From positions 682,001-746,000 of the forward strand of contig CM073331.1 of the NCBI GenBank assembly GCA_037043015.1: a DNA stretch of 64,000 bases, given 5' to 3'. The stretch is from Bryum argenteum. Lineage: Eukaryota > Streptophyta > Bryopsida > Bryales > Bryaceae. The notes under the pieces were generated by a model that ran no database searches, was not told the DNA's origin, and saw only the letters and a list, made by a program, of their open reading frames with translations. This document shows positions 4,741 through 64,000 of the stretch, piece after piece. How positions within the stretch are numbered: position 1 is the stretch's first letter; the number at the start of each line of letters is the position of its first letter. A program made the position numbers and the translations under genes.

Positions 4741-5245
4741 TTAAGCTTTAACTCGGCCGAATGTCAAAAATCGACATTTTGGAAGAATGCAATAACTTTG
4801 AAGAGCCATAACTTCTTCATTTAGAGTTGCCTGTTTTGAATGAAATCAATTGGATTGGGTTCCAAATTAAGTCTACTTTGTGTGGTGAAAATCTAAATCC
4901 CAGACAATGAAGTATGAATAAATGACATGCGGCTCTTGTTTTTGAGTTTTCAAACATGAGGCATGTTTTGCCAATGGGAGGCAATTATAGGAAATTCAAG
5001 AAAGATGTTTTCATGCATTTTTTTTACATAATCATGATCTTAAGAAGAAGGGTAACAACTTGCTAGTAGGAAGATTTGATCTGAACATTTTTGGTACACA
5101 CATACATGGACAAGTTAGGTGCAAGATCTTATGGTTACATACTAGACATTACATCAAAAATTGAAAATTTTCATCTTGCATTGTAAGAGGGTGGTTTTGA
5201 GGAGTTTTGGCAGTTTTGGGGGCTTTCGACTTTAGGGGCGAAACT
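4741..5245. mobile_element. Decayed TTAA-family element
   Basis: From TTAA at 4741 the sequence CGGCCGAATGTC, then GACATTTTGG, then GAGCCATAACTTCTTCAT matches the reverse complement of the right end of the complete copy at 28349-28963. The far end near 5232-5245 reads CTTTAGGGGCGAA, a damaged version of the family terminus TTTAGGGGTTAA. Related internal sequence recurs at about 15780-15930. Boundaries are approximate. Confidence 0.45.
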
Positions 5246-5357: not shown

Positions 5358-6211
5358 TTCTATCAACTTTGAACATTGCTTGTGCACTCAAAAATGATCC
5401 GATTTCAAAACCGTGAAGTGCGTTGCAACCACAATCATGAAGACTACTACATCTTTGACATGGTTGCACACATTCGACAATGAAAGGAATATAAACGATT
5501 AGGAATACTTCATACACTATCGACAAACAAGTGTTACCATTCTTTGCTTCAATTTGAATGTTCATTCTAGCTTGCAAATTTGAAATGAGCTTGCAAGTTT
5601 GTTCTTTAGATATTGCAGATAATTCATGATGCATGATTTGTATCACTTCTACTTCATGCTACAATCTGGAGCGGAGTCTTAAATATTCTTGATATTTGAA
5701 GAATTTTTGTCAAAGCTTGTAGAAGCCCTTCCCACTCCTCAACAATGTTGCACTAGAAAGTAAAGGGTGGTGCATGAGACATTGAGTGATATCTCTCACG
5801 AATTGATCACTAAGCTCAGATATGTTTGTTATTCTTGCCGATTTTAAGGATTGACTTATCAATCTACTATAAATACTATGTAATATCTTTACAAAAATTG
5901 CTCCACACCACAACACGAGAGGAAGAGACACAAATCATACATTACGAATGAGCTACACTATCTAAAGGACAAACTTACAAGCTCATTTCAAATTTGCAAG
6001 CTTGAATGAACATTCAAATTGAAGCAAAGAATGGTAACACTTATTTGTCGATAGTGTATGAAGTATTTCTAATCGTTTATATTCCTTTCATTGATGAATG
6101 TGTACAATAGTATTGGAGAGGTAGTAGTCTTCAGTGCGGTTGCAACCCACTTTACGGTTTTGAAATCGGATCATTTTTGAGTGCACAAGCAAGCAATGTT
6201 CAAAGTTGATG
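5358..6211. repeat. Large inverted duplication, arms of about 246 bp
   Basis: The left arm (5358-5603) and right arm (5965-6211) are reverse complements with scattered differences, separated by about 360 bp. Read outward to inward, the arms share a peptide with the core IEAKNGNT, then SIVYEVFLIVYIPFI, then FEIGSFLSAQA. It is open on the minus strand of the left arm (frame 5338-5646) and broken by a stop in the right arm. The parental gene is not recognised. A transcript crossing both arms would fold into a long hairpin. Confidence 0.8.
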
Positions 6212-7358: not shown

Positions 7359-10300
7359 ATGGCGGCCGTGAGGGGGAAGAGGTTAAGTGATGTTGCCAGG
7401 AAATGCCTGAACACATTGAGCTCAGGAGGCAGATCTATCGAGAACTCGTTGATCACTTCGACTTCCGTCATTCCACATTGTCAACATGATTATGTTCGGT
7501 CATTACTGCGAGGGGCAGGGAGAATAGATCAAAGTAGGATCCTACAAGTGGCCAGATATCACGAAGGAAGACCAAGACGAGTAGTGAAGGGCTTGCAAGC
7601 CCAAGCAGTGTGCTCGAGCTGCAACACGCCAGTGTATCCCTCAGTGGCATCGATTTATCCATTATCTGATGCTGTGCCGCCGTGTTCGAATTGCGGAAGC
7701 TTCGAGACTCACTTGATTATTGAGAGTGAGGGAACAAGGGACGATTCGATGCAATTGCGGCATTCCGTGCAACGTGTTTCGCAATGGCATACCGCTGCTC
7801 ATCGAGGGCAAGGAGGGTATGGTGATGGCCAGACCTGGCAGCAAGGTGCAAGTTCACGTCCGCCAACTCCTGCAGCGGCTGCTGCTCAAGCTGCAGCTGC
7901 TGGTTCTTCACCATATCCTTCTAGCACCAATCTTCTCCGTGCACAAACGGGCATTGGAGGCTCAGGAGGATCGAGTGCTGGTTCGGGTTCTAGAGACTCC
8001 TGGGGTGGCTCGTCTCTTGGAAAAGATCTTCCTACTCCCCGTGAGATTTGTCAAGCTTTGGACAAATTTGTCGTCGGACAGGAACGAGCTAAGAAGGTTC
8101 GTGCACCTTTCACCTCCTTACCAAACGATTGTCAGTAACCAAATATAGAGAGCAATGCAAAAGTTAAAAGCTACTGATTATACAGAAAAACTTTTGTTCG
8201 TATGCAACTCCTCTGCTTTTGTCGGTAGTGTGACATAGTCGATTCTTAAGTATCAGATTCAATCTTTTGATGTATTGTTACGTTGTTATTTGCCACTCAC
8301 AGACTGCATTGTACATTGTAGTCATCTCATACCTCAACTGAGAGTGCAATAAACCGTCGTCAACCTAGATTAGTTGTTCATAACTCCTCATACTTCTGCT
8401 TTGGGTGGATAGTAATATTATATCAAAAAGGTACTTGATTTTATTGTATCCTGGGAGAGACTTTCGTGATTAGAGGTTAAGAGATTGCCACTCGCTTTAA
8501 GATTATGAGTCTCGCAACAGAAGGAAGGTCGATTTCATATGCTAACATTCTGGTCCCTGCAGATATTGTCTGTGGCGGTTTACAACCATTACAAGCGTAT
8601 TTACTTGGAGTCTGTGAGGAAAGGAAACGTGGAACCTGCTAGTGATGGGTATATATCATATCCCATTCTTTATTCCCAGTGTATCGTTTTAGTCAATTAC
8701 CTATGTACTTTATTCAGCACCTCATTGGAAAATTTTCAACTATATACAGCTACTTCCTTGTTTATCATTCTTGGCTAATTGGCAAGATGCCGCGTGTCTG
8801 TGCATTTTCAGGTTCAGTTTGAGTGACGTCGAAGGTGAAGAAAATGATGTTGTAGAATTGGAGAAAAGCAATGTACTTCTCATGGGTCCTACTGGTTCTG
8901 GTACGTTTCAATCTTGTACTGCCTAACTGCTGATGCAAATCCCCGTTAAGTTAGAATTTACTCTCGCCTACATCAGTCGATGATAATCAGATATAAGCTT
9001 AAGAGGTGCTAAAGTTGTTTTCCTCTGTCAGGCAAAACCCTGCTTGCCAAAACCTTGGCTAGATTCGTTAACGTACCTTTCGTCATCGCTGATGCTACAA
9101 CCCTCACTCAGGTGACCATTCTGAGATCACTACTTAATAAGTTTGAAGCTTCAGCTCCGTCCTCTAGTTACATAGACGTCCGACAGTTTCTCTTCTAAGT
9201 TTGGCATTTTACTATATTAGCTTGGTAGTCATTACGGTCTTTGGCCATGTGCAGGCAGGATATGTAGGAGAGGATGTTGAATCGATTCTTTACAAACTTT
9301 TGATGGTATGATCATCATTTTCCTTCGCTCTTTATCATTCCGCAGTTTTCTGTTGTTTCTTGCATGAGTTTTGTATTATGTTGGAGCTCTCAGTTAGGTT
9401 ATGAAATACTGAAGAGGCTTATAGTTCATTTGGTGACGGGATTTGTGACCACAGGCAGCAGAGTTCAATGTGGCTGCTGCCCAGCAGGGTATCATCTATA
9501 TAGATGAAGTGGACAAGATTACGAAGAAGGTATATAAATTCTTCTTGCTCCATTAGTCGGTTATTAGTTGGTGACTATCGTGGGAATGACAATCTTCAAA
9601 GCACGCAGCCAATATTGTCCTCAGTGCTGATAGTCAGTGCATTGTTCAGGCAGAGAGCGTGAACATCAGCCGGGACGTGTCCGGTGAAGGCGTCCAGCAG
9701 GCGTTATTAAAGATGTTGGAAGGCACTGTAGGTTCCTCTTTACCTCTTTTCCTATACATTTCATGCAGATTACTTAAGCCTAAGCCTGAGGAAAATGAAC
9801 CGGGCTCCTGCTCACACCTCTGGTCATTCAAACATTGCTGACATCCTAAAGGTTGCTTGTAACCCAGTACGTCATGTCTTGAGATTAATAATTGACTTTG
9901 ACAAAGATGATGGTTTCGCTCATGGTTGCCTTTCATGGTACAGATTGTGAATGTTCCTGAGAAGGGGGCACGAAAACATCCAAGGGGAGACCATATCCAG
10001 GTACCATAGGTCCTAGTGCCATCTCGGAGCACTTCTCTTATTACCTCATTCTCTTATTGCAACTCTGCTCTTTGGATGGAAAGATGGTTTATAGTGTTTT
10101 GTGTTGTATACAAAAAGATATGGGGGTGGACATTTCTGTGAGCGGTGTAAGTTTTGCAGATGGATACGAAGGATATTCTCTTCATATGTGGAGGCGCTTT
10201 TGTCGAACTTGAGAAGACAATTGCAGAAAGGTAATCGATACTAAGTCATAAAAGATCGCCTGGTAGAGATGTATTTTCTTACGTGTTACGATCTTGGATA

Positions 10301-24005: not shown

Positions 24006-27000
24006 AGTGTCAGATACTGTATCTCTCCCTGGAAACTATCAAAACAATCAATTAGGTTTTATTTCTGCCTCGATGCCATGACTCACTATAATTCAAGGTC
24101 TCTAGTCTCATTCTTAAAATTGAATTGCACAAAACTAAAATATGTCACCTCTCAAACTCACACACGATTACATGACCGCTCGAGGTTTTTGTACCTGCAT
24201 GCAATGAGACCGCAGCCCCTGACACAAGAGTCAGATTTCTCTCCCTGGAAACTGTCAAAACAATCTCTAAGCTTTTATTTTTGCCTAAATGCCATGACCC
24301 ACTATAATTCAAGGTCTCCAGTCTCATTCTTGGATTTGAATTTCAGAAAACTAAAATATGTCACCTCTAAAACTCACACGCGATTACATGATTGCTCGGG
24401 GTTTTAATTCATGCATGCAATGAGACCTCAGCCTCTGACAAAAGTGTCAGATTTCTCTCCCTAGAAACTCTCAAAACAATCAATAGGATTTTATTTGTGC
24501 CTAGATGCCATGACCCACTATAATTCAAGATCTCTAGTCTCATTCTTGGATTTGAATTTCAGAAAACTAAAAAATGTCACCTCTCAAACTCACACACGAT
24601 TACATGATCACTCGGGGTTTTTATACCTGTGTGCGATGAGACCTCAACCCCTAACACAAGTGTCAGATTTCTCTCCCTAGAAACTCTCAAAACAATCTCT
24701 AAGGTTTTATTCTTGCCTAAATGCCATGACCCACTATAATTGAAGGTCTCTAGTCTCATTCTAAAAATTGAATTTCAAAAAACTAAAGTATGTCAACTCT
24801 CAAACTCACACACGATTACATGATCACTCGGGGTTTTTATACCTGTGTGCGATGAGACCTCAGCCCCTAACACAAGTGTCAGATTTCTCTCCCTGGAAAC
24901 TGTCAAAACAATCTCTAAGGTTTTATTCTTGCCTAAATGCCATGCCCCCTATAATTCAAGGTCTCTAGTCTCGTTCTTGAAATTAAATTTCAAAAAACTA
25001 AAATATGTCACCTTTCAAACTTACACACGATTACATGATTCCTCGAGGTTTTTATTCCTACGTGCGATGAGACCACAGCCCCTGACACAAGTGTCAGATT
25101 TTTCTCCATGGAAACTGTCAAAACAATCTCTAACGTTTTATTTTTGCCTAAATGCCATAACGCACTATAATTCAACGTCTCTAGTCTCATTCTTTAATTT
25201 GAATTTCGGAAGACTTAAATATGTCACCTCTCAAACTCACACACGATTACATGATTGCTCGGGGTTTTTATTCTTGCGTGCGATGAGACCTCAACCTCTG
25301 ACAGAACTATCAGATTTCTCTCCCTAAAAACTCTCAAAACAATAATTTGAGTTTTATTTGTGCCTAGATGCCATGACCCACTATAATTCAAGGTCTCTAG
25401 TCTCATTCCTGAAATTGAATTTAAGAAAACTAAAATATGTCACCTCTCAAACTCACACACGATTACATGATCACTCGGGGTTTTTATACCTGCGTGCGAT
25501 GAGACCTCAGCCCTAACACAAGTGTCAGATTTCTCTCCATGGAAACAGTCAAAATAATCACTTAGGTTTTATTTGTGCCTAGATGCCATGACCCACTATA
25601 ATTCAAGCTCTCTAGTCTCATTCTTAAAATTGAATTTCAGAAAACTTAAATATGTCAACTCTCAAACTCACATACAATTACATGATTGCTCCGGGTTTTA
25701 ATTCCTGCGTGCAATGAGACCTCTCTCCCCGACACAAGTGTCAAATTTCTCTCCCTGGAAACTATCAAAACAATCTCTAAGGTATTATTTTTGCCTTAAT
25801 GCCTTGACCCCCTAAAATTCAAGGTCTCTAGTGTCATTCATAAAATTGAATTTCAGAAAACTAAAATATGTCACGTCTCAAACTCACACACGATTACATG
25901 ATTGCTCGGGGTTTTTATTCCTACGTGCGATGAGACCTCAGCCTCTAACACAAGTGTCAGATATCTCTCCCTTGAAACCGTCAATACAATCTCTAAGGTT
26001 TCATGTTTGCCTAAATGCCATGACCCACTATAATTGAAGGTCTTTGGTCTCATTCTTAGAATTAAATTTCAAAAAACTAAAATATGTCACCTTTCAAACT
26101 CACACACGATTACATGATCACTCGGGGTTTTTATACCTGCGTGCGATGAGACCACAGCCCCCAACACAAGTGTCAGATTTCTCTCCATGGAAACTCTCAA
26201 AACAATCACTTAGGTTATATTTGTGCCTAGATGCCATGACCCACTATAATTCAAGCTCTCTAGTCTCATTCTTAAAATTGAATTTCGGAAAATTTAAATA
26301 TGTCACCTCTCAAACTCTCACACGATTACATGATTGCTTGGGGTTTATATTCCTGCGTGCGATGAGACCTCAGCCTCTAATACAAGTGTCAGATTTCTCT
26401 CCCTGGAAACTATCAAAAAAATCTCTAAGGTTTTATTTTTCCCTTAATGCCTTGACCCACTATAATTCAAGGTCTCTAGACTCATTCTTAAAAATGGATT
26501 TCAGAAAACTAAAATTTTGTCACCTCTCAAACTCACACACGATTACAAGATTGCTCGGGGTATTTATTCATACGTGCGATGAGACCTCAGCCCCTGACAC
26601 AAGTGTCAGATTTCTCTCCCTGGAAACTATCAAAACAATCTCTAAGGTATTATTTTTGCCTTAATGCCTTGACCCACTATAAATCAAGGTCTCTAGACTC
26701 ATTCTTAAAATTGGATTTCAGAAAACTAAAATATGTCACCTCTCAAACTCACACACGATTACATGATTGCTCGGGGTATTTATTCCTACGTGCGATGAGA
26801 CCTCAGCCCCTGACACAAGTGTCGGATTTCTCTCCCTAAAAACTCTCAAAACAATAATTTGAGTTTTATTTGTGCCTAGATGCCATGACCCACTATAATT
26901 CAAGGTCTCTAGTCTCATTCTTGAAATTGAATTTAAGAAAACTAAAATATGTCACCTCTCAAACCCACACACGATTACATGATCACTCCGGGTTTTTATA

Positions 27001-28348
27001 CCTGCGTGCAATGAGACCTCAGCCCCTGACAAGTGTCAGATATCTCTCCATGGAAACTGTCAAAACAATCACTTAGGTTTTATTTGTGCCTAGATGCCAT
27101 GACCCACTATAATTCAAGCTCTCTAGTCTCATTCTTAAGATTGAATTTCAGAAAACTAAAATATGTCACCTCTCAAACTCACACACGATTACATGATTGC
27201 TCCGGGTTTTTATTCCTACGTGCGATGAGACCTCAGCCCCTGACACAAGTGTCAGATTTCTCTGCGTGGATACTGTCAAAACAATCTCTAAGGTTTTAAT
27301 TTTGCCTAAATGCCATAACACACTATAATTCAAGGTCTCTAGTCTGATTCTTTAATTTGAGTTTCGGAAAACTGAAATATGTCACCTCTCAAACTCTCAC
27401 TTGATTACATGATTGCTCGGGGTTTTTAATCTTCCGTGCGATGAGACGTCAGCCTCTAACACAAGTGTCAAATATCTCTCCCTTGAAACCATCAAAACAA
27501 TCTCTATGGTTTCATTTTTGCCCAAATGCCATGACCCACTATAATTGAAGGTCTTTGGTCTCATTCTTAAAATTAAATTTCAAAAAACTAAAATATGTCA
27601 CCTCTTAAACTCACACACGATTACATGATCACTCGGGGGTTTTATACCTGCGTGCGATGAGACCTCAGTCCCAACACAAGTGTCAGATTTCTCTCCATGG
27701 AAACTGTCAAAACAATCACTTAGGTTTTATTTGTGCCTAGATGCCATGACCCACTATAATTCAAGCTCTCTAGTCTCATTCTTAAAATTGAATTTCGGAA
27801 AACTTAAATATGTCACCTTTCAAACTCACACATGATTTTATGATTGCTTGGGGTTTTTATTCCTGCGTGCGATGAGACCTCAGCCTCTGACACAAGTGTC
27901 AGATTTCTCTCCCTGGAAACTATCAAAAAAATCTTTAAGGTATTATTTTTGCCTTAATGCCTTGACCCACTATAATTCAAGGTCTCTAGTCTCATTCTTA
28001 AAATTGAATTTCAGAAAACTAAAATTTTGTCACCTCTCAAACTCACACACGATTACAAGATTGCTCGGGGTATTTATTCCTACGTGCGATGAGACCTCAG
28101 CCCCTGACACAAGTGTTAGATTTCTCTCCCTGGAAACTGTCAAAACAATCTCTAAGGTTTTATTTTTGCCTAAACGCACTATAATTCAAGCTCTCTAGTC
28201 TCATTCTTAAAATTGAATTTCCGAAAACTTAAATATGTCACCTCTCAAACTCACGCACGATTACATGATTGCTCGGGGATTTTATTCCTGCTTGCGATGA
28301 GACCCGAGCCCCTGACAGAAGTGTCAGATTTATCTCCCTAGAAACTCT
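24006..28348. repeat. Satellite array, about 216-217-bp monomers, first block
   Basis: Head-to-tail monomers recur with a spacing of 216-217 bp, for example the word TCTCCCT(G/A)GAAACT at about 24024, 24240, 24456 and 24673. About 20 copies lie in this block. Each holds a dyad CTGACAC-AA-GTGTCAG (sometimes mutated), a CACTATAATTCAAGGTCTC segment and ACTCACACACGATTACATGA. Monomers differ at many positions, so the array is not freshly amplified. One whole monomer is open in one plus frame, giving long spurious frames. Confidence 0.95.
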
Positions 28349-28963
28349 TTAACCCCTAAATGGTTTGACTCATTTGTAGTAAAATGAACACATCCTCAAA
28401 AGCATTGTCATAGGTGGAGGTAAAAGTGTGTTATCCAAATCTCAACCGTACAATCTTGTCGTAGACATATTGAACATCATGTGGGTCAAATTTTGAGTCA
28501 TGAGGCTTCATAGATTGCGAGATCATAATGTATTAATACTCAAAAATGATCACATAATTTCATCATTTTCACTTTAAAGTGAAAATGCTACCATTAGACT
28601 TATTCCAATGAAAAAGTCACCAATTAGAATGTTGTTCACCTTCATCTCAGTAGCATCCTTGAACAAAAAAAAACCATGAGAAAAATTTCTTTGTGCAAAT
28701 TATGGCCCTGCAATGGTGAAAACTGCCCTAAATTTTACAAAGGAAAAAATGTCTAAAACTAGGCTGCTGTCACTGAAATGCATGCCAATAATTCATACGT
28801 CATTGTATGGGTCTGAGATTTTTATTACATGAACTAGACTTGATTTGGGACCCAACCCAAGTGATTTCGTCCAAAACGGAGTCCGGATGAAGAAGTTATG
28901 GCTCTCCAAAGTTGGTGTCATCCAAAATGTCGTTTTTCGACATTCGGCCCGCTTAAGGGTTAA
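28349..28963. mobile_element. TTAA-bounded non-autonomous element inserted in the satellite, 615 bp
   Basis: Left TTAA (28349-28352) then CCCCTAAATGG; right GGCCCGCTTAAGGG then TTAA (28960-28963). The left flank GAAACTC-TTTAA and right flank TTAA-ACAATCATTTGGG rejoin exactly to the uninterrupted monomer sequence at 29390-29412 and again at about 30038-30060, where a single TTAA is present. This shows insertion at TTAA with duplication of those four bases. The interior is non-coding. Its right half resembles the right ends at 53299 and 62700. Confidence 0.92.
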
Positions 28964-31552
28964 ACAATCATTTGGGTTTTATTTGTGCCTAGATGCCATG
29001 ACCCACTATAATTCAAGGTCTCTAGTCTCATTCCAGAAGTTGAATATAAGAAAACTAAAATATGTCACCTTTCAAACTCACACACGATTACATGATCACT
29101 TGGGGATTTTATACCTGCATGCGATGAGACCTCAGCCCCTAACACAAGTGTCAGATTTCTCTTCCTGGAAACTATCAAAACAATCACTTAGGTTTTATTT
29201 GTGCCTAGATGCCATGACCCACTATAATTCAAGCTCTCTAGTCTCATTCTTAAAATTGAATTTCAATAAACTTAAATATGTCACCTCTCAAACTCACACA
29301 CGATTACATGATTGCTCGGGGTTTTTTTATTATTCGTGCGTGCGATGAGACCTCAGCCCCTGGCAGAAGTGTCAGATTTGTCTCCCTAGAAACTCTTTAA
29401 ACAATCATTTGGGTTTTATTTGTGCCTAGAAGCCATGACCCACTATAATTCAAGGTCTCTTATCTTATTTTTGAATTTGACTTTTGAAAACTAAAATATG
29501 TCACCTCTCAAACTCACTCCCGATTACATAATCGCTTGGGGTTTTTATTCGTCCGTGCGATGAGACCTCAGCCCCTTACTCAAGTGTCAGATTTCTCTCC
29601 GTGGAGACTATCAAATCATTCATTTGGGATTTATTTGTGCCTAGATGCCATGACCCACTATAATTCAAGGTCTCTAGTCTCATTCCAGAAGTTGAATTTT
29701 AGAAAACTAAAATATGTCACCTTTCAAACTCACACACGATTACATGATCACTCGGGGTTTTTATTCCTGCATGCGATGAGACCTCAGCCCCTAACACAAT
29801 TGCCAGACTTCTCTTCCTGGAAACTATCGAAACAATCACTTAGGTTTTATTTGTGCCTAGATGCTATGACCCACTATAATTCAAGCTCTCTAGTCTCATT
29901 CTCAAAATTGAATCTCGGAAACTTAAATATGTCACCTCTCAAACTCACACACGATTACATGATTGTTCGGGGTTTTTATTCCTGCGTGCGATGAGACCTG
30001 AGCCCCTGACAGAAGTGTCAGATTTGTCTCCCTAGAAACTCTTTAAACAATCATTTGAGTTTTATTTGTGCCTAGATGCCATGACCCACTATAATTCAAG
30101 GTCTCTAGTCTCATTCCTTAATTTGAATTTCGGAAAGCTGAAATATGTCACCTTTTAAACTCACACACGATTACATGATTGCTCGGGGATTTTCTTCGTG
30201 CATGCGATGAGCCCTCAGCCCCTGACACATGACACAAGTGTCAGATTTCTCTCTTTAGAAACTCTCAAAACAATCATTTGGGTTTTATTTGTGCCTAGAT
30301 GCCATGACCCACTATAATTCAAGGTCTCTAGTCTCATTCTTGAAATTGAATTTAAGAAAACTAAAATATGTCACCTCTCAAGCTCACACACGATTACATG
30401 ATCACTCGGGGTATTTATACCTGCTTGCGATGAGACCTTAGCCCCTAACACAAGTGTCTGATTTCTCTCCCTGGAAACTGTCCAAACAATCACTTAGGTT
30501 TTATTCGTGCCTAGATGCCTTGACCCACTATAATTTAAGTTCTCTGGTCTCATTCCAGAAATTGAATTTCAAAAAACTAAAATAAGTCACCTCTCAAACT
30601 CACACACGATTATATGATCACTGGGGGTTATTTTATACCTGTGTGCCATGAGACCTCAGCCGCTTACTCAAGTGTCAGATTTCTCTCCCTGGAAACTGTC
30701 AAAACAATCTCTAAGGTTTTATTTGTGCCTAGATGCCATGACCCACTATAATTCAAGGTCTCTAGTCTCATTCCAGAAGTTGAATTTAAGAAAACTAAAA
30801 TATGTCACCTTTCAAACTCACACACGATTACATGATCACTCGGGGTTTTTATTCCTGCATGCGATGAGACCTCAGCCCCTAACACAATTGTCAGACTTCT
30901 CTTCCTGGAAACTATCAAAACAATCTCTAAGGTATTATTTTTGCATCGATGCCACGACTAACTTTAATTCAAGGTCTTTAGTCTCATTCTTAAAATTGAA
31001 TTGCAAAAAACTAAAATATGTCACCTCTCAAACTCACACACGATTACATGACCGCTTGGGGTTTTTGTACCTGCATGCAATGAGACCGCAGCCCCTCACA
31101 CAAGTGTCGGATTTCTCTCCCTAGAAACTGTCAAAACAATCTCTAAGGTTATATTTGCCTAAATGCCATGACCCACTATAATTCAAGGTCTCTAGTCTCA
31201 TTCCAGAAATTGAATTTAAGAAAACTAAAATATGTCACCTCTCAAACTGACACACGATAACATGATTACTCGGGGTTTTAATACGTGCATGCGATGAGAC
31301 CTCAACCCCTAACACAAGTGTCAGATTTCTCTACCTGGAAACTGTCAAAACAATCACTTAGGTTTTATTTGTGCTTAGATGCCATGACCCACTATAATTC
31401 AAGGTCTCTAGTCTCATTCCAGAAATTGAATTTCAAAAAACTAAAGTAAGTCACCTCTCAAACTCACACACGATTATATGATCACTCGGGGTTTTTATAC
31501 CTGCGTGCGATGAGACCTCAGCCCATAACACAAGTGTGAGATTTCTCTCTTT
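28964..31552. repeat. Satellite array, second block
   Basis: About 12 more monomers of the same 216-217-bp family between the TTAA element and the Ty3/gypsy element. Local indels occur, such as an extra TGACACA at about 30222. It continues after the retrotransposon at 44850. Confidence 0.95.
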
Positions 31553-31557
31553 GGAAC
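31553..31557. other. Target-site duplication GGAAC (left)
   Basis: GGAAC directly precedes the 5' LTR and is repeated directly after the 3' LTR at 44845-44849. The flanks rejoin into the satellite consensus TCTCT..GGAACTGTCAAAACAATC. A 5-bp duplication is standard for Ty3/gypsy integration. Confidence 0.95.
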
Positions 31558-33092: not shown

Positions 33093-35300
33093 ATGAGCAG
33101 TCGTTCTATTCCTGCGGAGTCTAGCAAACAAGCTAGGGAAGAGAGAGCCCGTAAACGAGCTAGAGAAAAAGAAGCGATAAAAGAATCTAATTCGGGAGAG
33201 AATCCTGCAACACCAAATTGGTCTGTGCCAGTAGCATTCACACCATATCCATACCAAATTCGTGAGGCAGAAATTGCTGAGAGCAGTCAGCAATCATTCG
33301 AATTGAAAAAGGACAAAGTTGGGGAAACAACCCAATTGAGTGAAAGTGAACGAGATCGGTTGAAAAATGAGGCTAAGAGCCTTGAGTCAACATCCCATTT
33401 GTTTTGTGAAGGAATATGTTTTTCAACATTGAATTCTCCATTTGGATCTCCTAAGAGAATACGAGATCGAATAGAGTTTGAACCCTCTGAAGTAACAGAC
33501 GAAGTCGTTACTGATTCTCCATTTGGTAAGTTTGAGAGAAAAAGTTTTCAATCCGAATCGGGAGAAGAAACCCCAAATCAAAAAGAAGTAACTAGTCGGA
33601 AATTAATTATACCTAAGGTATTTCAAGAGGAGCGAGTCGCTAATCAGGACAATTTGAGACAGGCTCTAATCGGAAAGTTGAACGCTTTACAACAACCGAT
33701 TAGACCAATAATCAATATGGCGGCACAGCCCCATAGATTACCGATGAGTGATGCGCGACGGTCATGATGATGATCGTCCCTATTCGTTGGTTCCATATCC
33801 TGAATTTGCTGGACAAATTGGTGAGGACCCTGATGCTCATATTTATGAATTCCTAACTAGATGTAATACAAATAACGCGCGTACAGAAAGCCATTTTTTG
33901 AGTATTTTTCCAAGTACGTTAAAAGCCAATGCTAAGCTTTGGTTTCAAAGACAGCCATTTGGACAATTTCCAGATTGGACTAGTTTGAAAGATGCCTTCT
34001 TGGCTCATTTTAGACCAATGTCATATAACGAATTGTTACATCAAAGTTTTGCCGAGTTGCAAATGAATCAGGGTGAAACGGTCGATTCGTACTATGGACG
34101 AATGGAGGACATTCTTAATAGATTGGGAAATCATGGATATCCAAATCCCCATCTAATGCGCCAATTTATTGGAGGACTAAGTCCCCCAAGACTTAAAGCC
34201 TATGTGAGAGAAGGCACACCGCCAATTTGCAAGCCGCTTATGATAGAGCCAAAATTTGGGAAGAAGTGCATTATTATTTGAAATATACGGAAATCCAAGG
34301 CTGATTTATCAGAATCAAATTGAAAATAAATTAGTAAAACCAAGTCTTCCAAATACGATTAGTTACCTAGCACCTGCGTATGCAAACCCAAACGTAATAA
34401 ATCAACAACCTATAGTGGTTAGTCAATCACAACCAATGGGCAATAATCAAGTAAGAACTATGGCGACTCAGCCACAAATTAATGAGCCTATAGGTCGGAG
34501 TACCAACCCAACAGTGGAAGCTCAGTTGTTAGAGTTGACTAGAGAACTTGGGAATTTAAGAGTGCACCTAACCAATGCGGGAGAAAAGAGAAGTGAACCA
34601 AATGAAGATAGAGCTCATATTTGGTGTTCAAATTGTAGGGGGCAGGGACACATGTCTATTAATTGTCCGTCACCCCCAAATTTACCAGTAGAATGTAAAT
34701 TTTGTGGAGGTGAACATGAGATGGAAAATTGCACAAAACTTAAAAGTACTTTGGTTAAATTTTCAAATAATAAAAACCGAAATGGGCAAGTGTATTGGAT
34801 AGAGGAGAACAATAATAATAATGATTATCAAAATAGGAACAATAACGGGCCAAACCGAAGAAGGAATTTTAATAATTATAATAATTCGGGGAATAATGGT
34901 CCTAACACAAATTATTCTTATAGAAATTCCAATAATAGTGATTACGGTAGTAACCAAAATCGTCCCCAGGGGTCAAAATGGATATAACTTGAGAATCAAG
35001 GTTGGAACCAAAGTCAATCAAATAATCCCAACCAAAATAGTGGTAACCAAGCCAGGCGGGTAGAAATACGAATTGGTCAAATAATAGGTCCAATAATCCA
35101 CAATGTTATAAATGCGAGAGAGTTTGGACATATTTCGACATATTGTACAAACCCAGGACCAAGTGATGCATTTGCACTTATATGCGGTAATTGTAAACAA
35201 AATGGGCATAGGGCGGAAGAGTGTAATGCCCCGCGTAAAAATGGGCCACGTGACAATGATGGTTACAATCAAAAAAGGATACTAGTCCTAAAATAATTTT
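33093..35300 (+). pseudogene. gag of the Ty3/gypsy element, frame-broken
   Basis: Spread over three frames: 33093-33767 (charged N-terminal part), 33748-34281 (retrotransposon gag core, with AKLWFQRQPFG and the SYYGRMEDILNRLG region) and 34256-34987. The nucleocapsid part has CX2CX4HX4C knuckles at 34625-34666 (CSNCRGQGHMSINC), about 34694-34732 (CKFC...HEMENC), about 35103-35146 (broken by an indel) and about 35184-35225 (CGNCKQNGHRAEEC). An Asn-rich segment lies between the second and third knuckle. Gag would form the particle that packages element RNA. Confidence 0.85.
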
Positions 35301-35515
35301 AATACAAGAAGACGAGCAAAACCAAAATACTAGGCCTACTTATCATGTCCATGCCATGATCGAGGAATATGAAAATAAAGAAAAGGGTCGGAAGGAACAA
35401 AATCATGTGAACGCAGAGCAACTAGGAGCCAAAAGGGAAAACAAATTCCACTTGGTAGTTTAGAGGTCCCGAGAGAAAAGAGATTACTAATAAGGAAACT
35501 CAATATAATAAGAGT

Positions 35516-37576
35516 ATGGAAAATTTGATTAACAATCCCGGAAATATGGGTGAAAATAGTAGTGGGATAAACCATCAAGTCGGGCAAGAAAAAGCCTTAG
35601 TAGGTGACAACCAAGTTGATGTTAATGCCAACTTGCAAGGGCCAAATATTAAATCAGTCCATTTTAATACCGAGCCAGTAAGTGTAATAATACCAATAGA
35701 AAACAAATTGGGTTTAGATGGAATTCAAGAGCCGGAATCAGTCTTTTATCCAAATTTTGATCAAAACCAAGAACAAGTAGAAAGGGTGAATCTACCCCAC
35801 CTAGAAATGGGACATCAAAATCAAATAATTGAAAATAACGTAAGAATAAATGGGGAACAATTACAACAAATGGATGAGAGGGATCAAGTGGGTACTACAA
35901 TAAAACCAATTGGGAAAAGGAAGAAAAATAAGCCCAAACAATTAGGTATAATAGAAGGGTTGGAACAATATGATTTAATTCAAAATTTGAATAATTTGAA
36001 GGCTGATATTACTATAGCCCAATTGTTAGCAATAGCACCTTGGTGTAGATCTATTCTTAAATCTAAAATTGTGAGGCGAAGAGCAAAACAAATACAGGTG
36101 AATGAAGTATCAATTAGCCCAGACCCAGGAGCCCCTATGATTGATATAGAAATTGATGGTTTAATTATTACAGGTGTCCAAATAGATGGAGGTTCAAGCG
36201 TTAACTTAATGAACAACGAAACCATGGAAAATCTTAATTTGTCTGGATTACTACCTACCAAATTGGTTTTAAGAATGGCTGACCAAAGTCGAGTGAAGCC
36301 TTTGGGTATTTTATCAAAAGTTAAGACAAAAATATCGGGACTTGTGTTTTTCATAGACTTTATAGTATTCAAACCAAGTACAATTAATACTTCATACCCA
36401 ATATTGTTAGGGAGGCCATGGCTTTATCAAGCAAGGGTGACAGACGATTGGGGTAAAGGCATATTAAAGATACGTCAAGGGGATCAAAAGGTTAAGCTTG
36501 GGATGTATGCAAGTAGGTACCAGGGTGAAACCCAGTGGGAGTTACCAGGTACTACTAGCCAATCAGAGTCAATGACAGAGGATGAAACATATACGATTAG
36601 GGTGAGTAATACACCTAATATAGTAAATAATGTTAAGACACCTAAGAGAACTTTTAGAGAAGTAGCCCCTGGTGAATATAGTATAGAATACGAAGCTGAT
36701 GATGATTCAGATGAAGTCATTCAAACTTGGCTAGAAGCACCCGTGTACAACATAACATCCGAATGGGAGAATATAAGTTCAAGTGAAAATGAAAGAGTGA
36801 ATACTTCATCGGATAGTGTTCCAAATAGGGCTTATATCGAGAAGAGCCAATGTCAGAATATTAACGTGGGTTCTGGGGAGGAAGAAAAGAACATACAAGT
36901 ATATGCCGGTTTACCTAAGGACGAACTAGTTGGTTGGAAGCAATTTTTTAGGACTAACGCAAAAACTTTTGCGTGGTCTTATAAGGATTTAAGGGGCGTA
37001 CCACCAGAAATTTGCGAACACAAAATAGAACTTGAAGAGGGTGCTAAACCCTCAAAACAAAGACCACATAGGCTAAACCCGAAGTACTCACTAATGGTAA
37101 AGGAAGAAATAGAAAAATTAATTAATATAGGATTTATTTATCCTGCCCCATATAGCGAGTGGGTGAGTCCAATCGTGATTGTGCCTAAGAAAGATGGACG
37201 CATACGTATTTGCCAAGATTTCCGAAAACTTAATGCGGTTACGAAAAAGGACCACTTCCCACTTCCATTTACGGATGCTATCCTAGACAATGTAGCTGGA
37301 CATGAATGCTATTCGTTTCTGGATGGTTTTTCCGGGTACAACCAAATTCAAATTGCGAAGAAAGACCAAGATAAAACCGCTTTCGTGACAGATTTAGGAA
37401 TATTCGCATCCAAAGTTATGTTATTCGGTCTGTGTAATGGAGCAGCTACTTTTCAAAGGGTTGCTACATTAGCATTCCAAGAATATTTGAGGGATTTCAT
37501 GGAAGTCTTTTTGGATGATTTTTTGTGTTCGAAAGAAAAGAGAACATGCAAACCATTTGGAAAAATGTTTTGCTAA
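35516..37576 (+). pseudogene. Protease and N-terminal reverse transcriptase of the Ty3/gypsy element
   Basis: A 686-codon frame. The aspartic protease lies at about 36130-36430 with active site IDGGSSVN, the plant gypsy form with Gly where many have Thr. A long acidic linker follows. The reverse transcriptase begins at about 37040 with SPIVIVPKKDGRIRICQDFR and reaches FLDDF at about 37509-37523, where Phe replaces the usual Tyr of YLDDF. The frame then shifts; the enzyme continues in the next frame from 37515. Confidence 0.88.
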
Positions 37577-38852
37577 GTGTCACCAATTCGGAATATCGTT
37601 GAACGCTTCTAAATGCCAATTTGTAGTTCCATATGGGAAGCTACTAGGCCATATTGTAAGTAAGAAGGGTATAAGTACCGACCCGGACAAAGTGTCCAAA
37701 ATTGTTAAGTTACCAATCCCAAGCACAGTTACACAAGTAAGAGGATTTCTTGGACATGTGAGTTACTATAGGCGATTTATATTTTCTTATGCTAAGATAG
37801 CAGCCCCATTGAATATATTGTTAAAAAAACTTGTAGCGGGCGCACACCCAATTTGGACGTTAGAGTGTGATGAGGCATTTAAACTACTTAAAAATAAGCT
37901 AGTGACTGCCCCGATATTAGTATCTCCAAATTGGGAATTGCCATTCCATGTTTATGTTGACGCTAGCAATATAGCTATAGGCTGTGTGCTTAGCCAAAAG
38001 GATGAAAATAAGAGAGATCACCCTATATATTTTGCTAGTAGGCAATTAATCCCGGCGGAAAGAAATTATACGACTACAGAACGGGAAGCACTTGGTATGG
38101 TTTATGCCGTACAGAAATTTCGTCATTATTTACTCGGTTATAAATTCACAATTCATGTGGACCATGACGCGTTAAAATATTTAGTAAATAAACCACAATT
38201 AAGTGGCAGGTTGGCCCGATGGGTGTTATTGTTGCAAGAATTCCAATTTGAGGTGGTAGTTCGACCAGGCATATCTCATAGTAACGCAGACCATTTGTCA
38301 AGGTTAGAAAAACCTGACAAGTCGGATTTAGAGCCAATTGATGACGAAATACCCGATGCTCAACTATTTGAGGTTGATATAATAAATACCGAATATGCGG
38401 AAATTTTAAATTACCTTAAAACAAATGAATTTCCAAATTGGTTCCAACCCTTGCAAAAGAAGGCACTTATAAAGAAATGTAGGCCCTATACGCTAATAGG
38501 GGGGACGTTATACAAACAAGGCCATGATGGCATTTTGCGTCGCTGCATTTATCATAGTGAGGTACCCGCTATTTTGGAAGGGTGTCACTCTGATCCATGT
38601 GGGGGCCACTTCGCGGGAGAAGCTACAGCACGAAAAGCTCTTTTAGCAGGTTATTGGTGGCCGTCATTATTTAAGGATGCCCACGCATATGCAAGGCGTT
38701 GTGACCCTTGTCAACGTGTGGGTAAACCAACCCCTTCAACAGCAATGCCATTAAAGCCATTATTAGCCTTGGCACCGTTCGAAAAATGGGGAATTGATTT
38801 CGTGGGTCCTATAGCACCACCTACACGGCAAAGTCAGAACGTTACATACTAG
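37515..38852 (+). pseudogene. Reverse transcriptase C-terminus, RNase H and integrase N-terminus
   Basis: Continues the polymerase thumb (GFLGHVSYYRRFI), then RNase H with D/E/D residues in YVDAS, TTEREAL and VDHDAL (37950-38175). The integrase zinc domain has HSD...GGHF...CDPCQ (about 38585-38715), then the first catalytic Asp in WGIDFVGPI (about 38790). The frame ends at 38852. Two nearby indels around 38815-38865 displace the next segment. Confidence 0.88.
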
Positions 38853-39639
38853 TAGCAACAGTTACGCTACTAAGTGGGCAGAAGCAATACCAACTAGGCA
38901 CGATGATGCCCAAACAGTAGCCCGTTTTCTTCATGAGAATATAATTTCCCGCTTTGGTTGCCCTCAAGAACTTATTAGTGATAGGGGCACACATTTTCTA
39001 AATGAAACTATTCGTGAACTAACTGAAAAATTTCTCATCAAGCACCGCAAAACAACCCCTTATCATCCTAGAGCAAATGGTCAAACAGAAAAGACTAATG
39101 GGTTGTTGTGTAAAATTTTAACCAAAACAATAAGTGGAGCCGGGAATGATTGGGATGACAAATTATGGGCTGCATTGTGGGCATACCGCACAGCCTATAA
39201 GAGTACAACGGGATATACCCCCTTCCAATTGGTTTATGGGCAAGAGGCAATTTTGCCTATTGAATTTGAGATACCATCCTTACGAGTGGCTATAGAAAAT
39301 CGACTCGGAGAAACAGAAAGTCAAAAAAATAGATTAATTGAGTTGGAAGCCTTAGATGAAAAAAGACAAGATGCATACCTAAACACTTTAGCCATTCAAA
39401 ATAGGAGAAAGTCCTATTATGACAGCAAACTAGTACCTAAAACATTTAAGGAAGGAGACTTAGTATTGTTATATGATAGTCGTTTTTTCAAGTTTCCAGG
39501 CAAATTGAAAATCCATTGGTTGGGACCCTATAAGATAACAAATGTCAATCCTAATGGGTCAATACAATTGCAAGATTTTGAAGGTAAATTATTACCCACT
39601 AGAATTAATGGTTATAGGCTTAAGCCATACTTTATGTAG
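38830..39639 (+). pseudogene. Integrase core and C-terminus of the Ty3/gypsy element
   Basis: After the frame break, SDRGTHFLNE (second Asp) and PYHPRANGQTEKTN (Glu) complete the D,D-E core at about 38965-39100. The 178-codon frame at 39103-39639 carries the C-terminal part with LGPYKITNV (GPY/F motif, about 39517-39545), ending GYRLKPYF. No chromodomain follows. Integrase would insert the cDNA with the 5-bp duplication seen. Confidence 0.88.
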
Positions 39640-47950: not shown

Positions 47951-49391
47951 GTTGGGACTGCACTTGATTCGGAGTCGGATTGTGAAGAATCTGAAAAGAA
48001 GTAAAACATTACTGACAGTTATCTTAGTGAAAGATCCCAGGAATTTGAAGTAATGTTTTTTTAGTTGCTGCGACCTTATTGTTTTTGAGAGTCTTTTTTT
48101 AGAATATATGAGGATATAATACATTTTTTTGGCAGATTTGAGCATGCCCTTATAGTGTATCTCCTATGAGGAATTTTCAGGTATGAATGGTCTCTTTGGA
48201 TAGGTATGAGTGGATGTTTTGCTTTGCGAAAGGTTTGAAATTTGATTATCTAGATATAGTATATAAGAGGTTGACCAAAGTGAAATTTTCTTCTTCTTTA
48301 TTTTTATTTTTATTTTATTTTGATTTTTTATCTTTCACATAATTGGCTTGCCATGGTAAAACATGCCTAATGTTCAATAATTCAAAAACAAAACTTACTT
48401 TCACTAATATGCATTTAATCAATTTATGCCTCATTGTATGGGTCTACACCATTTATTGCACAAGTTAGACTTGATTTGAAACTCCACCCAAGTGATATTG
48501 TCAAGAACAAATACCAAATGAAGAAGTTATGACTCTTCAAAGCTTTGACCTTTCATTTAATTGGTTGATTTTTGAGCATGAGGCATATAGGGGTTGAGTA
48601 TTCGAAAACTCAAAAAAGCAATTTTCTACCTTTTTGCATAAGTGGGAATTATAAATTTTATAATAATTTTAACCAGAAGATTTTGAAGTAACCTACTTTG
48701 AAGTATAAATTGCTAATTTTTCCCAAATGTCTTCTTTGAGTCCATTCTTGTTGTACTATAGCTAACTCACAACTTTATAGTAAGTGAAGCAAGATCGAAA
48801 TTTGAGCTTCTTTCAAGTTATAGTTGATGCACTACTATGGACTAGGTGTTCCTGAACATGCATAAAATTAGAAGACAAGATGTGCACGTAGCATAGTTTA
48901 GATTCATGGATAATAGATTTGATTTTAATGAACTTTTATTTAAATTTTGTCTCGTATCAAAGATAAACTTCCCCCTTATGTTAAGAAGATGTGTACGAGT
49001 ACATGATATATTTAACTAGTTATCAATAACACTTTGAAATATAGCAAATTGAGTACAGAAAAACTTTTGATTTATGGAAGTGGTCTTCATTGCAACGAAC
49101 AAAGAAGTTATTACATATGAGTACAAAAAACACAAAACCACTTAGTTAGCTTAAGTACTTTTATTACATCAAGCATTAAGTGAGCATATATATATATATA
49201 TATATATAATCTTTACCACTAAAGATAAAGATAGATTGAAATTGTAACACCTAATAAAATTTGATAAGTTGAAAATATCTAAGAACAAGAAGGCCATCAC
49301 ACTTCATATGGACGACAATGTGATAGATGTATGCTTTATATCTAAAGATATGAAAGGTTGAAGCTTAGGAGATATAGAAGATTAGGTATGA

Positions 49392-49970
49392 TCAACCCCT
49401 AGATGTCCCAACTAAATTTTTGCTTAGATCCCCAATTCCGTTAAAATGGCGTTATGCCGCTAAAATAACACACCTCAACTTTCTCAACTGTAGTTCAAAA
49501 ACCATGTGATATAACAAAATCGTAAGGTGATATTATGGAAAATGAGTGATAATGTATATAAAGGAGTGATATTATGAAGTAAAAATTGTGATATTACTGA
49601 ATACACCATTCCATGTGAGCACATATGTAAGATTTGGTGTGCCAAAATGGCACATGGCATAGTGCCATTTTAACGAAATTGAGGTTTTAGAGAAACAAAT
49701 TTAAAAAAAACTCTTTTTCATAAAAATGGAAGTCAAGCTATTTAGATCTATGTACAATCTTCTTGTAAACTTGTTGTATATTATGTGGAGTAAATTTGAG
49801 TCATAAAGCTACATAGATTGCAAAATTATAGTGAGTTAGTACTTAAAATAGATTGCAAAGTCTTATCATTTCCACTTTGGAGTTGCTATTAAAAATTGCA
49901 CAAAGTGGTCAAAAGATTGCAATTTTTTATTTTGAAGGCTCTAAAACACCTGTAGGCCTTTAGAGGTTTA
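49392..49970. mobile_element. Decayed TTAA-family element, block A
   Basis: The left end TCAACCCCTAGATGTCC and right end CCTTTAGAGGTTTA are damaged versions of the TTAA termini preserved in the sister copy at 55450-56078. It contains the nested MITE at 49429-49686, which the sister lacks. Confidence 0.55.
49429..49686. mobile_element. 258-bp MITE (CCCCAATTCCG family), copy 1
   Basis: Terminal repeats TCCCCAATTCCGTTAAAATG and CATTTTAACGAAATTGAGGT, flanked by TTAGA on both sides (49424-49428 and 49687-49691). The sister sequence at 55480-55490 shows a single TTAGA at the unoccupied site. A second copy in inverted orientation lies at 54704-54957. The interior alternates ATATCAC/GTGATA words and is non-coding. 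Confidence 0.85.
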
Positions 49971-53619: not shown

Positions 53620-54381
53620 CCAACCCCTAAATGTCCTAACCTATTGTTAACAAAAAAGTAAATTTCTCACAAAAGTATCGTAGGTGAGAATGAAGGTAAG
53701 TTATCTAAATCTCAATTGACCAATCTTGTAATAGATTCATAGATTTAATGAGTCATGTCGACCAAAAATTGAGCCTCATTGATTGTGCAATCATAAACCA
53801 AAAGTATATTAGGTTTTCCATTTAAATCTATGCCTTTACTTTGAGAAAACTTTTATTGCGTGAAGGTTACTACCACTAAAATTAGATTCTAATTGGAATT
53901 CATTCGAGAAAATAAAGTTGAAATGCAACAATCAATATAGGAGATACAACTCAACAAAAATATATATTTCTTTAGTTTTTTTGGGATAAAATCATATGAT
54001 TGTGTAAATTCAATACGGAAGTTGATTGGATAAAAAATCTTCCAACTAGAAAACTTCTTGTGTACATCTTAAGATATTAATTCTACAAAAAAAAATTCTA
54101 GTGAAAACTAATTTTTTTTCCCATATAATTGGCTTGCCGTGGTAAAACATGCCTAATGTTTAAAAACTTAAAAACAAAAGTTACTTTCACAAAAATGCAT
54201 TTCATTAATTTATGCCTCATTGTATGGGTCAACAATTTTTACTACACAAGTAGAATTGATTTAAAACCCCACACGAATGATATTGTCAAGAACAAATTTT
54301 GAATGAAGAAGTTATGACACTTCAAAGCTTTGGCTTTCATTTAATGGGATGATTTTTGAGCACAAGGCATGTGAGGGTTAA
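53620..54381. mobile_element. TTAA-family element, left TTAA mutated
   Basis: Starts CCAA-CCCCTAAATGTCC, similar to the left end at 28349 (TTAA-CCCCTAAATGG), and ends CATGTGAGGG-TTAA (54378-54381). The interior matches 28349-28963 in several places (GAATGAAGGTAAGTTATC, ATTGGCTTGCCGTGGTAAAA). Non-coding. Confidence 0.6.
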
Positions 54382-55449: not shown

Positions 55450-56078
55450 TTAACCCTAGATGTCCAAGCTAAATTTTTTGCTTAGAAACACAATTTGTAA
55501 GGAAATATTTTTTATAAAAATGGAAGTAAGCTATTTAATTTTTGATTGTTCAGTCTTGCTATAGACTTGTTGTATGTTGTATTGAGTAAATTTGAGTCAT
55601 GAGGCTATATAGATTGCAAATTCATAGTGAGTTAATATATAAAATAGATTGCAAAGTCTTATCATTTCTACTTTGGAGTTCCTATTAAAAAACATACCAC
55701 GCAAACTCTCCCCTAAGAAGTTGGTCATGTGTATCATTCTTACAAAAGTAAAAGAAAGAAATAAATAAAATGAAATAAAATAAAATATAGTGTTCATTAA
55801 AATTTTGAACCATGAAATATGTTCGTTGTGATACTACTACTCAAAGCTTTGAGAAATCCAAGTTCAAGCTCTTACCAATTTTACAAGGGTAGACTTTAAA
55901 GTTTAACGAGTGTAAAGCTTCAAAAGTTGCAAAAAAACTTGAATTATGATTATCTTAAAGTTGAAGATATCAAAAAAGTAAAAATATTGAATCATACCTC
56001 AATCTGCACAAAGTGGTCGAAAGATCGCAATTTTTAATTTTGAAGGCTCAAATACATCTGTAGGCCTTTTGGGGTTAA
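55450..56078. mobile_element. TTAA-family element, 629 bp, block B
   Basis: Left TTAA-CCCTAGATGTCC (55450 on), right CCTTTTGGGG-TTAA (56075-56078). The inverted match beyond TTAACCC is weak. Sister copies without intact TTAA lie at 49392-49970 and 63073-63903. Non-coding, with words such as GAGTAAATTTGAGTCATGAGG shared with the left half of 28349-28963. Confidence 0.6.
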
Positions 56079-62700: not shown

Positions 62701-64000
62701 AATAGGCATGTGAAAATTTCTCTCATAAAAAATTCAAGTGTGTCTCAAGTGGCGCCTTCTTTATACATACTTAATCTAAAAAGGTCACACTAACTTGAAG
62801 TAATCTTTTTAAAGACACGGCGACCTTATTGTTTTTGAGAAATATTTTGAGAATATATGAGGATATAATACATTCTTCTGGGCAGTTTTCAGCATGCCCT
62901 TAAAGTGTATCTCCTAAAGTATTAGGAATATTGAGGCATGAATGGTCTCCTTGGAAAGGTATGAGAAAACAATGTGGTGGATGTATGCTACATACTAAAG
63001 ATATGAAAGGTTGAAACTGACCCCAAAATACACGTATTATGAAACTCAGAAGATATAAAAGATAAGGTAAGATCAACCCCTATATGTCCCAATTGATTTG
63101 TACTTAGCAACACAATTTTTTAAAAACTCTATCTCATAAATATGAAGGTAAGCTATTTAGGTCTTGTTGTAGACTTGTTGTATGTTATGTGGAGTAAATT
63201 TGAGTCATGACTCATGAGGCTACATAGATTGCAAAATCATAGTGAGTTAATACTTAAAGTAGACTGCAAAGTCTTTTCATTTCCACTTTGGAGTTCCTAT
63301 TAACAAACATACCGCAATTAAAAACTCTCCCCTAAAAATTTGTTAACGTTCATCTTTCTTACACCCTTGCACTATATATATAAATATTCTTAGAAATTAA
63401 CTAATTAATTTAGTTTTTGCAATTATAGCCTTGCAATGGTAAAAAATGCCTCAAATTTTACAAGGGAAAATTGGTCCCAAATGGACCCCTTGAACTAAAA
63501 TGATGCCATACTTTCCTCTAATCTTGGATCAAGATTATTTTCTTGCCACAAAAACTAGATTCAAGCTCATTATAATACTACCACTCAAATGTTTGAATAA
63601 TCCAAGTTCAAGCTTTTACTAGTTTTTCAACGGTAGACTTTAAAGTTTATAAGAGTAAGCTTGAATGCTTCAAATTTGTTTTAATTCATCAACTTTCAAT
63701 GTTATAATCTAACAAATGGTAAAGTTCCAATGGTTAAAATTTGACATGGTATTAGTGCAATTAGCTATTTTGATTATCTTAGAGTTGAAGATATTAAAAA
63801 AGTAAAAAACATTAAATCATACCTCACTTTGCACAAAGTGGTCAAAAGATCGCAATCTTTGACTTTGAAGGCTTAAAATCAAGCTTAGGCCTTTAGGGGT
63901 TAGTTGTCTACTATGTTTTACTTACTTGCTTAAGACTTAAAAGAAGAGTTTTTAAGCCAAAAGATTCCTATCACCCTTACATATCTCACTCTTTGGAAGA
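62701..64000. other. Non-coding duplicated block C, runs off the window
   Basis: Collinear with the starts of blocks A and B. No gene. It contains the decayed TTAA copy 63073-63903. Confidence 0.65.
63073..63903. mobile_element. Decayed TTAA-family element, block C
   Basis: Left TCAACCCCTATATGTCCC, right GGCCTTTAGGGG-TTAG; sister of 55450-56078 and 49392-49970. Longer than those copies because it keeps interior sequence (TAGCCTTGCAATGGTAAAA, CAAATTTTACAAGGGAAAA) also seen at 28700-28750. Confidence 0.55.

Follow-up and report, generated by a model that had tools for sequence, protein, structure and literature searches.

A 607-bp miniature element with TTAA duplications and its piggyBac transposase-bearing relatives in the genome of Bryum argenteum

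The element and its insertion site

The DNA analysed here, referred to as the window, is a 64-kb stretch of the Bryum argenteum genome (C11:682001-746000; genome 258.8 Mb, 25 contigs). It contains a non-autonomous element of 607 bp which lies between two copies of TTAA, begins CCCCTAAATGG and terminates CGCTTAAGGG (Table 1). No frame of at least 130 codons is found fully inside the window copy, one listed frame crossing its right end. The element divides a 216-bp satellite array into two blocks, and its 60-base flanks, when fused via a single TTAA, align without gaps to 29337-29460 (95%) and 29983-30106 (97%). The split of the array and this alignment confirm the proposal, made in an earlier note on this DNA, that the element interrupts a satellite monomer at TTAA. 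That note had also named two empty neighbouring monomers; both are present, each with a single TTAA and in exact register, although the coordinate given for the second was 2 bp off. A junction pattern, which need not recover every monomer, gave 28 places, and CTTTAAAC occurs in only two of these, namely the two empty-site monomers, whereas most others read TCAAAAC, indicating that a TTAA-bearing variant monomer was the target. Empty forms of this targeted variant still adjoin the element, and they may simply be sites that were never hit.

Elsewhere in the window, the translations of 33093-39639 contain, by eye, frames of a Gypsy-like LTR retrotransposon with gag-, protease-, reverse transcriptase- and integrase-like stretches, and the PDB offers no more than a weak ClpX match for the frame at 7359-8138. 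Genome-wide, 90 chlorophyll a/b-binding matches were obtained, and weak clusters of these, covering model positions 31-161, lie at about 8.16-8.41 Mb and 14.73-14.76 Mb of C5 and at about 25.06-25.09 Mb of C2; we presume that they are possibly ELIP-like. For one LHCII frame, the best single-stretch PDB matches were 8htu and 7xqp, with 9vfj (620 residues, two stretches) higher in total; the portions of the literature consulted describe 7XQP as a structure from the moss P. patens (PMC12965295) and 8HTU as PpPSI-L (PMC10005731). Judged by this single protein, the host is most likely a moss.

Table 1. Positions of the miniature element, its insertion site and other TTAA elements in the window.
Feature	Position	Strand	Remark
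Non-autonomous piggyBac element (probable MITE), both TTAA counted	28349..28963	.	607 bp between TTAAs
TTAA target site duplication, one side	28349..28352	.	37/37 uninterrupted copies; side contained in queries
TTAA target site duplication, other side	28960..28963	.	37/37 uninterrupted copies
Terminal repeat, left end, CCCCTAAATGG	28353..28363	+	Related motif TTAACCCYTMAA at transposase loci
Terminal repeat, right end, inward reading CCCTTAAGCGGGCC	28946..28959	-	Common to transposase-bearing partner family
Subterminal palindrome AATGTCG-5nt-CGACATT	28926..28944	.	Present in partner element, spacer TTTTT not AAAAA
Imperfect internal palindrome, TTAA at centre	28555..28596	.
216-bp satellite array hosting the element	24022..31556	.	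TRF blocks 24022-28346 and 28962-31556
Empty site, single TTAA, adjacent monomer	29390..29411	+
Second empty site, single TTAA, adjacent monomer	30036..30057	+
Other TTAA element, 908 bp, ends TTAACCCCTAAACGACC / GGTCGTTTAGGGGTTAA	3087..3994	.	80% copy adjoins L069 transposase element
Other TTAA element, 448 bp, ends TTAACCCTTAAACGCCC / GGGCGTTTAAGGGTTAA	12897..13344	.
Old relative of 607-bp element, 68%, right end at TTAA	52945..53299	+
Old relative of 607-bp element, 65%, right end at TTAA	62337..62700	+
Old relative of 607-bp element, 66%, right end at TTAA	54032..54381	+
Old relative of 607-bp element, 68%	4741..5070	-

Family size, age and target duplication

The left 46 nt of the element (TTAA included, up to three mismatches) occur 373 times in the genome and the exact 27-nt right end, without TTAA, 224 times, with no occurrence of the reversed control in either case, so that the multi-copy family suggested earlier is indeed present. 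The location of the window copy within a tandem array would also suit a satellite component, or an error of assembly, in place of a mobile element. This reading is extremely improbable in view of the 373 left ends, of best matches that are spread over C1-C11, and of flanks that differ among the inspected copies.

The copies inspected (L001-L038) were taken in listing order, with exact left ends, and come mainly from C1 and C2. One interrupted copy, L025, carries a related element (77-82%) inserted at the TTAA of the internal palindrome, and since its counted right TTAA belonged to this insert it was excluded (38 to 37); in L029, a second left end is truncated by the end of the locus, and the same copy is complete in L028. 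Alignment of the copies with their flanks, as proposed in the earlier note, gave TTAA on both sides in 37 of 37 uninterrupted copies, the right TTAA being unbiased only for L009-L038 (30 loci), because L001-L008 were retrieved with a query containing both TTAAs and L009-L038 with one containing the left TTAA. The length is exactly 607 bp in 32 of the 37, and mean divergence from the column majority is 0.74% (pairwise mean 1.26%). This low divergence indicates a young burst; the corresponding figure for T. ni piggyBac is about 0.17% according to an excerpt of PMC5844692. The family is thus short, non-coding, fixed in length and represented by numerous near-identical copies, as a MITE should be.

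The length of the duplication was addressed through copies with an unexpected end base. Among the 224 exact right ends, the next base is T in 217 (by subtraction) and C in 7, and eight exact left ends lack the preceding A; with two copies shared, these make 13 departing copies, which were found by searches using ends without the full TTAA and compared in 81-base strips around both ends. Ten of the 13 have an identical, clean 4-bp near-TTAA sequence on both sides (CTAA in five, CTAG in two, TTAG in two and TTAT in one); of the remaining three, one has TTAG versus TTAA, and for the other two the strip lacks a right end. As the base directly after GGG can be C, the element terminates at GGG, and models of a TA or a 3-bp duplication fail. 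TA- and TWA-duplicating MITEs are common in plants, and TTAA includes both TA and TAA, so that a target reading TTAA by chance might be envisaged for a MITE of the Tc1/mariner (TA) or Harbinger (3 bp, TWA) type; the duplication of all four bases at CTAG and CTAA, together with ends at CCC/GGG, in 10 of the 13 exceptions makes such an origin most improbable. A 4-bp TTAA duplication, as in piggyBac, describes the 37 copies as well as the 10 off-sites, and the terminal repeats likewise start with CCC (CCCCTAAATGG and CCCTTAAGCGG). Of the piggyBac insertions in mouse cells, 93% fall on TTAA, the others including CTAA, TTAG and TAAA (PMC3983033, in part), and TTAG and CTAA are among the rare duplications of animal piggyBacs, whose most conserved end motif is CCCTT (PMC10813416, in part). 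The off-site duplications found here fit these known piggyBac off-sites.

piggyBac transposases in the genome

A six-frame search with PF13843 (DDE_Tnp_1_7) returned 775 candidates. Scores were obtained for 116 of them, none falling below the cut-off, with a best E of 7e-82. These 116 lie on C1-C11; 93 are stop-free in the matched part and 23 contain a stop. No PF13843 match was found in 14 control genomes. These are apparently prokaryotes, since Synechococcus was the only one of them to be named by the chlorophyll a/b search, and are therefore uninformative on other plants.

Two of the loci were read as elements. L070 holds an element that measures 5286 bp with its two TTAA, has perfect inverted repeats of 20 bp at its termini and carries a stop-to-stop frame of 1187 codons; L069 contains the greater part of an element of 5.2 kb, which has TTAACCCTTAAACGCCC at each end (C1:23339974 and 23345172) and a frame of 897 codons. 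DDE_Tnp_1_7 is the only Pfam match of either frame, and in the PDB both are closest to piggyBac 6x67 and piggyBat 9c0f (9e-32 and 1e-31 in one search, with the next at 0.035; the same two first in the other, with the next at 0.51). In an alignment of 30 transposase frames, from which four with stops were excluded, each Asp of the catalytic triad, described for piggyBac as D268, D346 and D447 (PMC7351741, in part), is present in 26/26, 26/26 and 26/26 of the stop-free frames. A Cys/His pattern is discernible by eye in the C-termini of the L069 and L070 frames, that of L069 aligning with the terminal part of piggyBat; Pfam scans of three frames (L069, L070 and L102, described below) gave no match to the piggyBac zinc-finger profile at E 0.001 and none in the region before the DDE domain.

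Identity among the 26 stop-free frames ranges from 35% to 98%. A tree of 52 rows groups 27 plant transposases with 14 ena/jgi/lgn rows at 100/99, apart from 11 others, of which three bear animal names; several of these outside rows are long-branched, of which the program warned. The members of the 100/99 group are divided among several old sublineages, whose tips consist of young copies that are nearly identical.

Relationship between the miniature element and transposase-bearing elements

Of the 30 transposase loci, 11 have an outward TTAACCCYTMAA end within 1.5 kb on the 3' side (12 ends), with one end in the opposite orientation and one match for the reversed control patterns. The 1.5-kb 5' flanks of the 30 loci contained no such end, the flank being shorter than the end distance in L069, L070 and L102. 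A partner search was made with the inward 18-mer of the MITE right end plus a base at position 29 that the MITE lacks. It gave 24 non-MITE places genome-wide (control 0), 10 of which are upstream of a listed same-strand transposase, at a distance of 2.9-3.6 kb, against 0.03 expected within 6 kb; the other 14 have no listed transposase within 6 kb, the list comprising 116 of the 775 candidates.

One of these 10, L102, reads TTAACCCTTAAGCGGGCCGAATGTCG as the MITE does and has a 46-bp match of 87% (E 1.5e-9) to the right end of the MITE; its other end is at locus position 5922, for a total of about 5.9 kb, and it encodes a 1231-codon frame with DDE_Tnp_1_7 at 1e-74. Between the left end of the MITE and the other end of L102, only TTAACCCCTAAA is shared, along with a weak 69% stretch further in (E 0.002), for which reason the MITE is considered a relative of L102 and not a simple deletion of it. 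The palindrome AATGTCG-5nt-CGACATT occurs in both the MITE and the L102 left end, and its spacer, AAAAA in one and TTTTT in the other, looks as if the hairpin had been flipped. Folded as single strands, the 56-nt ends of the MITE and L102 surpass most shuffled sequences, 2 and 6 of 200 of which did equally well. The longer elements with a piggyBac transposase for which the earlier note suggested a search are thus present, L102 being an example; a DDE_Tnp_1_7 domain and a DDD transposase are found in elements with the same end for one MITE end of the two, and no transposase-carrying element with both ends matching the MITE was seen.

Several other candidates were set aside. L101 (C3:12184960-12189380), with a left and an exact right end 4.34 kb apart, proved to be a MITE copy with a 3.7-kb insert, on either side of which 14 bp of the MITE are repeated, and no transposase was found in it. 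L099 and L100, which have the end TTAACCCCTAAATGGGCC, gave only old relatives of the MITE (65-73%). L069 and L070 have no match to the MITE with E < 0.1 and were not retained as direct partners, and a match to MITE positions 475-596 beside the transposase L051 is not accompanied by a terminal repeat.

The element is almost certainly a miniature, non-coding piggyBac-superfamily MITE, which a piggyBac DDD transposase of the same genome would move in trans. The earlier note had proposed piggyBac from TTAA and the CCC termini, and this is now supported by the PF13843 transposases, the triad in 26 of 26 frames, the best PDB matches and the partner sharing one end. Kolobok and Sola3 are other DNA transposon groups that use TTAA, and the TTAA duplication by itself cannot separate them from piggyBac; Kolobok elements and T2-MITEs are reportedly the subject of a paper on Xenopus. 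That the element belongs to either group is nevertheless very unlikely, given that the MITE end sits upstream of PF13843 transposases in 10 of the 24 places and that the full-length elements ending in TTAACCCYT code for DDD proteins of the piggyBac type; nothing in the results requires the Sola alternative of the earlier note.

For the favoured assignment to piggyBac, the sequence supplies the ends, the 4-bp TTAA duplication with its empty sites, the recent spread, triad-bearing transposases and a partner sharing one end. In the proposed mechanism, a piggyBac DDD transposase produced from the 5-6 kb elements of the same genome would act in trans on the MITE; it would recognise the ends TTAACCCYTAA..., excise the element and join it to a TTAA, which would become duplicated. 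The partner transposase is presumably expressed and active on the MITE, and excision would, by analogy with piggyBac, be footprint-free.

Other TTAA elements and apparent insertion into kin

Besides the 607-bp element and its old relatives, the window contains stretches, which are undelimited, that are 65-74% like parts of it (63162-63508, 48336-48584, 49752-49883, 55524-55679 and 53622-53796). The terminal 42-45 bp of the 448-bp element are 82-88% like ends beside the transposases L039, L040 and L043. Its 17-mer TTAACCCTTAAACGCCC occurs 3298 times genome-wide (control 0), and the first 100 places listed include many pairs that face each other at a distance of about 370 bp. A further TTAA family with perfect TTAACCCTTAAACGCCC ends, about 370 bp long, is exemplified by C1:20376515-20376884.

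Four MITE copies (L017, L021, L026 and L035) lie within the TTAA of an apparent terminal repeat of another TTAA element. In L102 itself, TTAACCC precedes the left TTAA and GCGCCCAC follows the right one. The genome contains 10 occurrences of the exact junction TTAACCC|TTAA|CCCCTAAATGGTTTGAC, with 1.2-1.4 expected in this orientation (P < 1e-5), an expectation that assumes 390 copies and 1.5-1.9 million TTAA sites, the latter estimated from the density in the window and at MITE loci. For the sequence TTAACCCTTAA there are 11,206 occurrences (428 for the reversed control). Insertion of the element and its partner into TTAA inside the terminal repeats of other TTAA elements seems to exceed expectation; this preference is only a lead, because the TTAA total and the copy number are estimates and not counts.

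Comparison with known systems and significance

The piggyBac group is best known from insects and vertebrates, and the end sequence of piggyBac itself starts with CCC. The plant elements resemble piggyBac (Trichoplusia ni, 6x67) and piggyBat (Myotis, 9c0f) in the TTAA duplication, the CCC-starting ends, the DDD triad and perhaps, as judged by eye in the plant frames, a Cys/His-rich C-terminus, but they differ in their plant host, in the size of the elements read (two of 5.2-5.3 kb and one of 5.9 kb), in stop-to-stop frames of 897, 1187 and 1231 codons as compared with chains of 594 and 578 residues, and in the separation of the plant transposases, in the 100/99 group, from tree rows that include the three with animal names. 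Insect piggyBac-type MITEs are also short, non-coding and TTAA-flanked, and here again the difference is the plant host.

As to the earlier view that piggyBac elements are little documented in land plants, no description of piggyBac in a moss was found in the literature searched, whereas a repeat table for the fern Ceratopteris richardii, in the portion seen, lists 1230 PiggyBac copies (122,417 bp; PMC6890710). The fern is a land plant too, but its copies come to about 100 bp each in that table, and neither the structure of an element nor a transposase is described there. In the passage found of the moss genome paper PMC10619864, 'piggybac' belongs to 'expression piggybacking' and does not denote a transposon, and the word has 0 occurrences in the P. 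patens transposon paper PMC7466625, the accessible part of which discusses LTR elements, LINEs and Mariner. The superfamily and the piggyBac mechanism are known, and no new mechanism is involved; it is the host that is little documented, and what is notable is this host, the scale, and the presence of young MITEs alongside open transposase frames.

A wider interpretation, the case for and against which we regard as evenly balanced, is that these elements belong to a deep piggyBac branch that resides in plants and is marked by N-terminal extensions of great length; this branch has, on that interpretation, been in this lineage for long, comprises several transposase clades (down to 35% identity) and thousands of TTAA elements, is still spreading and prefers TTAA in the terminal repeats of its kin.

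piggyBac, taken from an insect, is a workhorse tool for gene transfer. Its use in plants is described as limited in an excerpt of PMC10794571. A native plant piggyBac with open frames and hundreds of young MITEs could yield a home-grown, possibly footprint-free, plant transposon. The finding also raises the question of the route by which piggyBac entered this plant lineage and of its persistence there, and the co-occurrence of old and young families makes the history of piggyBac in this plant testable.
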